Positions 33,987 through 35,846 of a DNA stretch of 64,000 bases are shown here, piece by piece. Position numbers and translations under genes: made by a program. Below the pieces are notes generated by a model, which worked only from the letters and a program-made list of their open reading frames with translations, had not been told where the DNA came from and did no database searches. Origin of the DNA: Corynebacterium mastitidis DSM 44356 (lineage in GTDB: Bacteria > Actinomycetota > Actinomycetes > Mycobacteriales > Mycobacteriaceae); NCBI RefSeq assembly GCF_000375365.1, contig NZ_AQXB01000001.1:362770-426769 (forward strand), given 5' to 3'. Position 1 is the first letter of the stretch; each line of letters opens with the position of its first letter.

Positions 33987-34017
33987 GGGCGGGGTGTCGC
34001 CGCACCCCGCCCTTTTT
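33987..34017 (+). terminator. Rho-independent terminator after the EIIC-like gene
   Basis: A perfect 10-bp stem GGGCGGGGTG (33987-33996) / CACCCCGCCC (34003-34012), a 6-nt loop and TTTTT directly after. Confidence 0.92.
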
Positions 34018-34062
34018 GTGCTTATCGACGGCCCCGGTGCCACGGGAAGTCGATACACTCAA

Positions 34063-34127
34063 GTTCGTACAGATCGTACAGCGGAAGGAAGTTCGTACAG
34101 GGTGCTATAGTTCGTACAGATCGTACA
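34063..34127 (+). repeat. Five 9-bp direct repeats at the AAA ATPase promoter
   Basis: G(T/A)TCGTACA occurs at 34063, 34072, 34091, 34110 and 34119: two tandem pairs flanking one central copy, with start-to-start distances of 9, 19, 19 and 9 bp. The extended -10 TGC-TATAGT (34103-34111) lies between the central copy and the last pair and overlaps the fourth copy by 2 nt; AAGGAG (34127-34132) follows the last copy. The array thus covers the promoter from upstream of -35 to the ribosome-binding site, as an autoregulatory operator would. Confidence 0.92.
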
Positions 34128-34137
34128 AGGAGCAGGC

Positions 34138-35241
34138 ATGGCACCGCGTAATCCCTTCCGCCCCACCTTCGGCATCGTCCCCGAGGTCGTCGCCGGGCGC
34201 ACCGGCACCGTGGCGCAGGTATCGCTGGCGCTCGACGAGGGCCCCGGCTCCCCGTACCGCTTCACCCTCATCAGCGGGGCACGCGGCTCCGGCAAGACCG
34301 TGCTGCTCAACCTCCTGGAAAAGGAATCCCGCGAGCGCGGCTGGACTCCCCTGCGCGTCACCGCCTCCACCGCGATGCTCGATAAGCTCCTTCACACGGA
34401 CCTTCCCAAGCTGCTCGCCCAGGCCACCGACTCCCCGCACCGCACCCAGATCACCGGGGGCTCGCTCGCCGGACTCGGCTCCGTCACCGTGGAGCGCGCC
34501 CGGCGCTACCCGTATCAAGAATCCCTCCACAGCCTGCTGCGCGAGGCGGTGAGCCTCCTTGACTCCCGGGGCGGGGGCCTGTTCCTCTCGCTCGACGAGC
34601 TGCAATCGGCTTCCCCTGAGCACCTTCACGTCCTCACCGACGCCATCCAGGACCTGGTGCGCGACGAACTCCCCATCGCCCTCACCGTGGCCGGGCTTCC
34701 CTTCGAGATCGCGGAACTCCTCGACCACCCCGGAACCACCTTCCTGCGCCGCGCCGTACCCGTGCCGCTCACCGCGCTCTCCCGCGACGAGGTGGAGAGC
34801 ACCCTGCGCGATACCGCCCTTCGCGGCAGCAAGCGCTTCGACGACGCCGCAGCCCGCCTTGCCGCCGAGGCCACCCAGGGCTACCCGTACCTGGTGCAGC
34901 TTCTCGGCTCGGTGGCGTGGGCCCTCGCCGGGGAGGAGATCACCGCCGAGACCATCGACGCCGCCCTCCCCCTGGTCAAGGACCGCATGGGGTTGCAGGT
35001 CCACGCCCCCGCGCTGCGCGGGATACCCGGGCGGGAGCTGGAATACCTGCTCCGCATGGCGCGGGGAACTCGCCCCACGCCTACCGGGGAGATCGCGGAA
35101 GCGATGGGCATACCTGCTAACCAGCAGTCCACCTATCGACGCCGCCTCATCGAGCGCGGGCTCATCGCTCCCGCCGGGTACGGGCGCGTGGACTTTGCGC
35201 TGCCCTATCTTGGCGAGTACCTGCGCGAGCGCGAGGCATAG
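34138..35241 (+). CDS. AAA ATPase with C-terminal winged helix, solitary
   Basis: A 367-residue ATPase of the archaeal-ATPase/Orc-like STAND-related group. Walker A is GARGSGKT (about residues 47-54) and Walker B GLFLSLDEL, followed by a sensor region LTVAGLP. The C-terminus (about 300-367) is a winged helix-turn-helix (TGEIAEAMGIPANQQSTYRRRLIERGLI), so it should bind DNA. The obvious target is its own promoter, covered by five 9-bp repeats. The ATG at 34138 has AAGGAG 5 nt upstream. No partner gene is in the same operon. A function in defence, replication of an element, or regulation is possible. Confidence 0.85.
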   Translation: MAPRNPFRPTFGIVPEVVAGRTGTVAQVSLALDEGPGSPYRFTLISGARGSGKTVLLNLLEKESRERGWTPLRVTASTAMLDKLLHTDLPKLLAQATDSPHRTQITGGSLAGLGSVTVERARRYPYQESLHSLLREAVSLLDSRGGGLFLSLDELQSASPEHLHVLTDAIQDLVRDELPIALTVAGLPFEIAELLDHPGTTFLRRAVPVPLTALSRDEVESTLRDTALRGSKRFDDAAARLAAEATQGYPYLVQLLGSVAWALAGEEITAETIDAALPLVKDRMGLQVHAPALRGIPGRELEYLLRMARGTRPTPTGEIAEAMGIPANQQSTYRRRLIERGLIAPAGYGRVDFALPYLGEYLREREA

Positions 35242-35394
35242 GGAAAGACCATCGCCGCCACACGGGACTACTGCCCTAAAGTCCTAGACACCGTACCAAA
35301 GGGTGCGGTACCCTGAGCGGCAGCAGTGAAACAGCGCTGAGTAATCGGGGGAACGTACGTGAAGCATCCATCATCCTCATCGCAAGGAGCAGCC

Positions 35395-35846
35395 GTGGCG
35401 CACGTGAACGATGTGGCTCGATACATCCTCGAACGCAACGAGGGGCGCATGAGCACGATGAAGCTGCACAAGCTCGCCTACTACTCGCAAGCATGGAGCC
35501 TGGTCTGGGACGAGAAGCCACTCTTTCCCTCCCGAATCGAGGCCTGGGCCAACGGCCCCGTCACGCGCGATCTCTACGCTGCTCATCGCGGCCATTTCGA
35601 CGCCACCGCGAGCATGTTCCCAGGCGACTCAGGGAACCTGAGCAGCGATGAGAAAGAGACCATCGACGCCGTCCTCCGCGCGTACGGCCACCTCTCCGGC
35701 AGCAGCTCAGCGACCTCTCCCACAGCGAGCGTCCGTGGCGGGAGGCCCGCACGCACGTTCCCGAGGGCGAGCCCTCCACGAACGAGGTAAGCCCCGAGGT
35801 CATGCAGGATTTCTACAGCGCCATGTACTCGTCCGACGCGGTATAG
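35395..35846 (+). pseudogene. Panacea-domain (DUF4065, GepA/SocA-like) gene with a 1-nt frameshift
   Basis: It starts at GTG 35395 with AAGGAG upstream. The first frame encodes MAHVNDVARYILERNEGRMS..KLHKLAYYSQAWSLVWDEKPLFPSRIEAWANGPV, the Panacea domain start. At about 35700 the frame breaks after YGHLSG: reading from 35703 in another frame gives QLSDLSHSERPWREAR...MQDFYSAMYSSDAV and a stop at 35846, precisely the missing family C-terminus. One base appears to be lost in GGCAGCAGCTC. Panacea proteins are promiscuous antitoxins or phage-related adaptors; no toxin gene is beside it. A sequencing error is possible. Confidence 0.85.

Follow-up and report, generated by a model that had tools for sequence, protein, structure and literature searches.

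A sensorless NBD-HD-WHD ATPase of Corynebacterium mastitidis, and its family, are most likely autoregulated through operator arrays that coevolve with the winged helix

The archaeal proteins SSO1545 and PABY2304, of the PF01637 kind, have the same NBD-lid-winged helix fold over the whole length as the ATPase described here, which is encoded in a 64-kb stretch of DNA from C. mastitidis (the window; its ATPase is called the window protein). They differ from it in that a Pfam scan at E up to 1 gave no PF01637 match for the window protein, and no DNA target of SSO1545 or PABY2304 was found in the literature searches made here. According to passages of PMC5760070, the mycobacterial IniR (Rv0339c) contains an ATPase domain similar to SSO1545 and is the activator of one operon, whose promoter it binds in ChIP. 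In M. marinum the protein is 818 residues long and also includes a sensor similar to that of MalT and, as a separate unit, an SdiA-like domain for DNA binding. As described there, IniR is like the window protein in its ATPase domain and is dedicated to one operon, but this is another operon, which it activates, and the DNA is read with another domain; both extra domains are missing from the window protein. In the STAND class, defined by an NBD-HD-WHD core, MalT multimerises, binds cooperatively to several promoter boxes and recruits RNA polymerase (passages of PMC4381067). The core, with a multimerisation that allows cooperative binding to boxes, makes MalT comparable to the window protein, while its sensor domain and its separate DNA-binding domain, as given in the same passages, set it apart. 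Further, MalT controls other genes.

Cdc6/Orc1 initiators read repeats near their own gene. Like the window protein they have an AAA+ core with a C-terminal winged helix, but their structural match lies below that of SSO1545, and there is no evidence of an origin at the array in the window. The same NBD-HD-WHD unit is also found in NLR NB-ARC proteins such as Rx1, from which the window protein differs by having neither leucine-rich repeats nor an effector domain. The NB-ARC domain of Rx1 binds nucleic acids in vitro, and sequence-specific recognition is not described for it in the passages of PMC4599002. As far as the passages of these papers show, none of IniR, MalT and Rx1 is described as reading DNA via a winged helix which coevolves with an array before its own gene. 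Here we present a sensorless NBD-HD-WHD ATPase that is most likely autoregulated by way of an operator array coevolving with it, a finding that reaches well past the gene in the window. The locus contains the following features:

33987..34012, plus strand: terminator-like hairpin that ends the upstream PTS gene and sets it apart from the ATPase promoter
34063..34071, plus strand: array copy 1, GTTCGTACA, exact pattern match
34072..34080, plus strand: array copy 2, GATCGTACA, exact pattern match
34091..34099, plus strand: array copy 3, GTTCGTACA, exact pattern match; its partner copy is absent in the window and present in C. lowii (L018/L046)
34103..34111, plus strand: extended -10, TGCTATAGT, found by eye; shares two bases with copy 4
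34110..34118, plus strand: array copy 4, GTTCGTACA, covering the final two bases of the -10
34119..34127, plus strand: array copy 5, GATCGTACA, overlapping the expected transcript start region
34127..34132, plus strand: AAGGAG, likely ribosome-binding site 5' of the ATG, found by eye
34138..35241, plus strand: ORF of the 367-aa ATPase with P-loop (Walker A around K53), Walker B (D153-E154), helical lid and C-terminal winged helix
35119..35148, plus strand: recognition-helix residues N328-L337 (NQQSTYRRRL), covarying with the array

The pattern G(T/A)TCGTACA occurs exactly five times in the 64-kb window, always on the plus strand and with start-to-start distances of 9, 19, 19 and 9 bp, just as the earlier note had described it. 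In 100 shuffles of the window it was found 0.22 times on average and three times at most, never five times. The copies are grouped 2-1-2 and not 1-2-2 as previously read, and the idea that a period of two helical turns places them on the same face of the DNA had to be given up, since at 10.5 bp per turn their phases are 0, 309, 240, 171 and 120 degrees. The extended -10 had been set between the central copy and the last pair, but in fact it overlaps the fourth copy by two bases. Of the proposal that the ATPase gene is alone in its transcription unit, the upstream half is supported by the hairpin, while downstream no terminator-like site was found between the gene and the next same-strand ORF at 35359. 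This ORF (35359-35790) encodes a SocA-like Panacea (antitoxin) domain (Pfam, 7.1e-12).

That the gene product is a P-loop ATPase with a C-terminal winged helix was borne out by Pfam and by an AlphaFold model. The window protein matches AAA_16 (PF13191) with 49.5 bits at a cut-off of 32.6 bits; at E<=0.1, this family is matched by 104 of 104 family members and PF01637 by 61 of 104. The model (pLDDT 94.5, pTM 0.89) consists of an NBD-lid-winged-helix unit, in which residues 327-339 form the recognition helix and the chain ends after the winged helix. It has the NBD, helical domain and winged helix in the order of STAND regulators, and the Walker A and B residues which STAND proteins require (G47, G52, K53, T54, D153 and E154) are invariant in the 104 sequences. 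A STAND sensor domain is absent from the 367 residues, with nothing following the winged helix, and a LuxR-type C-terminal DNA-binding domain as in MalT was not found in the Pfam scan, there being no residues left to hold it. By structure comparison the best matches were PABY2304 (2qen, Z 24.6, rmsd 3.4, 311 aligned) and, tied with it, SSO1545 (2fna, Z 23.9, rmsd 3.3, 303 aligned), followed by A. pernix Orc2 (1w5t_A, Z 20.7, rmsd 4.2, 327 aligned), NRC4 (9cc9, Z 20.4), CED-4 (4m9s, Z 17.6) and the Cdc6/Orc1 structures 2qby_A (Z 17.4, rmsd 6.1) and 2v1u (Z 16.3, rmsd 7.1); the cores of NRC4 and CED-4 both align from residue 10-12 to residue 367. At the level of sequence, a single-protein search of the PDB gave no relative at E up to 1, and a profile search at E<=1 returned 222 distinct sequences, the 60 listed being partial P-loop, lid or winged-helix matches. 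In PADLOC, five family proteins had no clear model match: the window protein gave weak partial matches, the best to mad8 (5.7e-4, residues 41-161), and the best among the five was CARF3 for L103 (3.1e-4, residues 275-330).

The earlier note had proposed to test whether such arrays precede the homologues of the ATPase and change together with the winged helix. This turned out to be the case for most homologues with more than 30% identity, the change being seen as covariation with the recognition helix. As array statistic we required three or more pairs of exact 7-mer direct repeats within 140 bp upstream. In the best 80 of 178 relatives from named genomes, a set which includes close relatives, it was passed by 71 homologues and failed by nine, as compared to 32 of 306 neighbouring genes (taken from a simple ORF caller) and 4.6% of shuffles; for 69 of the 80 the result exceeded that of their own shuffles at p<0.05. 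In a larger set of 208 non-redundant homologues, obtained from 229 full-length matches by removing identical proteins and loci with a short upstream region, arrays were found for 71 of 80 with at least 40% identity to the window protein, 88 of 106 with 30-40%, 6 of 21 with 26-30% and 0 of 1 below this. By this statistic, homologues without an array, named in advance as counter-evidence, do exist (16 of 22 under 30% identity and 27 of 186 closer ones), while the rest have arrays. Among plasmid homologues, six of eight passed (eight of 110 records looked at), three of these six with plain tandem words of 9-10 bp by eye. From viral contigs 14 loci were collected, one of them too short, and 2 of 13 passed. 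By eye, the distant viral-contig homologues L256, L257, L259, L260 and L264 carry pairs of 6-7 bp, spaced about 10 bp, just before the start. The array habit may therefore be older than the statistic shows.

The words differ between clades. They include TCGTACA, CCTACAA, GATCTATCA, GATCTAACA, GATCTAAA, TTTATCAA, TTTATCGG, TTATCCA and TCTCCCAAA, as well as TTTCTCG, TATAACA, TGCTAAA, ATAGTAA, AACTGAG, CTTAGAA and others. On a tree of the ATPase body with the helix region excluded (127 rows), no fewer than 30 changes are required to account for 19 coarse word classes, the minimum possible being 18. The rows are those of the 208 homologues which had at least 330 aligned columns and fitted one of the 19 hand-made classes; the classes alone excluded 78 of the 208, and a few rows were assigned on two chance matches. 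Among the listed titles and abstract openings of open-licence papers no description of these arrays was found, which is not proof of absence.

The spacing of the repeats follows a common rule. In 165 arrays the favoured offsets are 9 bp (in 84 arrays), 19 bp (79), 28 bp (63) and 37 bp (39), as compared to 2.0-3.2 in letter shuffles; offsets of 8 bp (30), 10 bp (39), 18 bp (44) and 27 bp (33) are raised too. The offsets form a ladder with steps of about 9.4 bp, which vary somewhat between clades, and the copies in the window fit its sites 0, 1, 3, 5 and 6 within 0.4 bp. In C. lowii (L018/L046) there are three full doublets with a period of 28 bp. The window thus contains an array of this kind that lacks one unit, which accounts for its apparent symmetry. 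A helical turn is longer than 9.4 bp, so that consecutive protomers would follow a spiral around the DNA, and we infer that the natural binder of such direct repeats is a head-to-tail oligomer and not a dyad dimer.

The arrays overlap promoters, as follows from the position of their ends and of the -10 motif: the arrays end at a median distance of 17 bp from the start codon, and TANNNT is found 6-15 bp upstream of it in 87 of 157 cases, with 11.3 expected (start codons were chosen by nearness in this count). The position of TANNNT may be taken as a sign of leaderless transcripts. The window clade differs from this in that its array straddles the -10 and the start. Both placements suit repression, and the one before the start also suits activation. 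At the window gene, copies 4 and 5 lie across the start region of the promoter, which makes self-repression plausible.

The strongest link between protein and array comes from the recognition helix. Pairs were compared among the 161 of 208 homologues which passed the array statistic and had at least 330 aligned columns. At an identity of 0.55-0.70 in the rest of the protein, the array-word sharing was 0.626 for pairs with the same helix (n=73) and 0.190 for pairs with different helices (n=177); at 0.70-1.0 it was 0.738 (n=169) versus 0.269 (n=25). When 12-column windows were scanned along the protein, the helix window ranked first of 353 in tracking array similarity (partial correlation 0.163), and an N-terminal window at residues 11-22 (FGIVPEVVAGRT) was nearly as strong (0.133), both partial correlations being small. 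This close second suggests either that the N-terminus helps to contact DNA or that some shared ancestry remains uncorrected; residues 11-22 may touch DNA or the neighbouring protomer. Among 349 single columns, N328 ranked first and T332 fifth, while the 16 helix columns had a median rank of 79.5. In arrays of the type TTATCNN (n=33), the residues D-T-R at 332-334 go with AA in 15 of 15 cases and D-I/L/V-R with GG in 8 of 8; the remaining 10 arrays end with CA, TA or GC, that is neither AA nor GG. On the tree there are three independent switches between AA and GG, all concordant with the residue, which are too few for significance (sign test, p 0.25).

The ancestral locus at mnmA, with 30 orthologous genes, offers a comparison in which several words with matching helices have changed in place. 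Uncorrected, array similarity correlates there more strongly with the identity of the protein body (Spearman 0.82) than with that of the helix (0.73), and after correction the helix retains a partial Mantel r of 0.433 (p 0.0002). One mark of locally autoregulated DNA-binding proteins, a putative operator in the own promoter which covaries with the DNA-reading helix, was found in this family. With arrays before most homologues and a helix that covaries with them at fixed relatedness, the earlier suggestion that the ATPase binds the array has gained ground, and we regard it as very probable.

To see where else the words occur, we looked at 101 genomes of the genus. The word TTTATCRRTTTATCRR has 37 matches in 20 of them and GTCTCCCAAATCTCC has 26 in 13, the reversed controls giving 0 in both cases. 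By coordinate comparison, 28 of the 37 TTTATCRRTTTATCRR matches lie directly before an ATPase gene or remnant; the nine others consist of one doublet before a tyrS-like gene in each of three related genomes and of two arrays without ATPase (six matches). For GTCTCCCAAATCTCC, 24 of 26 are placed before an ATPase gene or remnant and two inside unrelated coding sequence. The words scanned are thus nearly private to the ATPase gene, and a genome-wide regulon was found neither for these two words nor for the doublet of the window. A TTTATCAATTTATCAA doublet lies just upstream of a gene taken by eye for that of tyrosyl-tRNA synthetase in L181 (at 4023), L182 and L183. The ATPases of the three genomes with a tyrS doublet use the TTTATCAATTTATCAA word, and tyrS is a possible second target. 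Intact arrays without an adjoining ATPase gene were observed in two genomes (L184, 4060-4117; L185, 4041-4082), and tblastn detected no ATPase remnants beside them.

The genome of C. mastitidis (2.37 Mb in 39 contigs) contains ten exact G(T/A)TCGTACA, namely the five copies of the array and five scattered singles, the latter being at chance level because the reversed control pattern gives four matches. The 18-bp doublet has three matches with up to 3 mismatches, two of them in the array and one elsewhere with 3 mismatches (reversed control, 1), and neither scan revealed a second array of this word in the genome. The family is present at four other places: a 35% relative, a distant relative and two decayed copies, the second of which was found only by the family profile. 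This second copy, which has repeats, was one of three further weak profile matches, and the other two belong by eye to unrelated proteins. Each of the four places has its own, different repeats at the same position (by eye): direct repeats similar to GATTCA(C/T)AA, GTTTATGCG repeats, TGTTAAATTTAACA dyads, and CTTTAT/ATAAAG doublets. The distant paralogue (L003, C2:188835-189971) carries two TGTTAAATTTAACA dyads ahead of its start, and in a decayed copy (L268, C4) CTTTAT doublets face ATAAAG doublets. These two cases indicate that arrangements other than direct repeats exist, and inverted sites may be in use in other arms of the superfamily.

The family is common in the genus (83 of 101 genomes, E<=1e-3) and patchier beyond it, with 27 of 150 genomes of the order (E<=1e-20) and 14 of 346 genomes of the phylum (E<=1e-30). 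A homologue was detected in 1 of 50,697 phage records and in 110 of 72,556 plasmid records, where the annotation in the records looked at is only 'ATP-binding protein'. In G026, G063 and G064, up to 12 family matches per genome were noted, several of which are fragments or divergent pairs. This suggests rapid gain and loss of family genes. A conserved partner gene was considered and dismissed, as the largest clusters of neighbours are explained by shared chromosomal position. In three relatives (L186, L187, L188), a dif-like sequence, ATAATGTACATTAT, lies between divergent ATPase genes, and it is also found beside a decayed copy in the own genome (L004/L005). Among the loci examined it was present only in these cases, and it was rejected as a general feature of the family.

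We propose the following account, which as a whole we hold to be reasonably probable. The winged helix would recognise the 9-bp word before its own gene. Several protomers, arranged head to tail with a spacing of about 9.4 bp, would occupy the core promoter and keep the ATPase gene repressed (autorepression), and the readiness of the protomers to polymerise would probably depend on the nucleotide state. The array would evolve together with the recognition helix as a matched pair, by which paralogues in one cell would be insulated from each other. The parts of this account are of unequal strength. Given binding, repression is moderately well favoured over activation, and for an oligomer that depends on ATP we see an even chance. 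A control of the ATPase by ATP is weakly suggested by the conservation of the Walker A and B residues.

Instead of repressing its promoter, the ATPase could activate it in the manner of MalT, with an array near the -35 position recruiting RNA polymerase where a -35 box is absent. A promoter scan gave no -35/-10 pair for the window promoter, and many relatives have a last doublet that ends close to where a -35 would be, immediately upstream of a leaderless-type -10. Precedents are MalT, which recruits RNA polymerase after cooperative binding to its boxes (passages of PMC4381067), and IniR as activator of a single operon (passages of PMC5760070). However, an activator would be in the way at copies 4 and 5 of the window clade, which extend across the end of the -10 and the expected start, and the window promoter has an extended -10. 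An extended -10 needs no -35. Activation is therefore a possible but rather unlikely reading. We consider it improbable that the array is primarily a replication, partition or recombination site of the ATPase, similar to those of Orc1/Cdc6 or to iterons, with promoter control as a secondary effect. The first Foldseek match, Cdc6/Orc1 bound to origin DNA, would fit such a role, as would direct repeats adjoining the gene of their putative binder, an arrangement known from iteron systems, the occurrence of homologues on plasmids and the dif-like sequence between divergent genes in three relatives. Against it, the genes are single at old chromosomal loci (30 at mnmA), with up to 12 matches per genome when fragments are included, the arrays abut leaderless-type promoters, and the closest folds are SSO1545 and PABY2304, not Orc1.

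Autorepression from a private array has also to be weighed against two readings in which the link between gene and array is looser. The ATPase could be an ordinary regulator with other targets such as tyrS, the own promoter being one site of several. The TTTATCAATTTATCAA doublet before the gene taken by eye for tyrS, in three genomes whose ATPases use this word, agrees with this, but the GTCTCCCAAATCTCC word lies outside the ATPase genes and remnants only in unrelated coding sequence, and no second array was found in the genome of C. mastitidis, so that this reading appears quite improbable. Finally, it is hardly conceivable that an unrelated factor reads the repeats or that they arose by neutral slippage, with the covariation reflecting shared ancestry. 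Array similarity does strongly track overall relatedness, but the helix still predicts the word when relatedness is fixed. Moreover, in five genomes 42 of 45 positions of the repeats are invariant, as compared to 0 of 10 in the linker 34081-34090 and 19 of 84 in the rest of 34000-34137, and this conservation of repeats next to drifting linkers counts against this reading.

Beyond autorepression by a head-to-tail oligomer, one may tentatively think of a large bacterial family without sensors, similar to the NLR core, in which the fast-evolving winged-helix reader of each member would build an ATP-gated helical filament ahead of the member's own gene, on a private lattice with steps of about 9.4 bp. 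For the words scanned its targets would be almost only the own gene; the promoter could then serve both as a place of storage and as a trigger, and the real output could be non-transcriptional, for example in stress or phage sensing. On this reading, dozens of ATPase-operator pairs insulated from one another would be available in the family.

In NLR, Apaf and Orc1 cores the winged helix is usually seen as a regulatory element. The family described here is a likely DNA-reading example beside these cores, and the matched arrays are a concrete handle on what its proteins touch. The arrays also provide a natural table of recognition helices versus DNA words.
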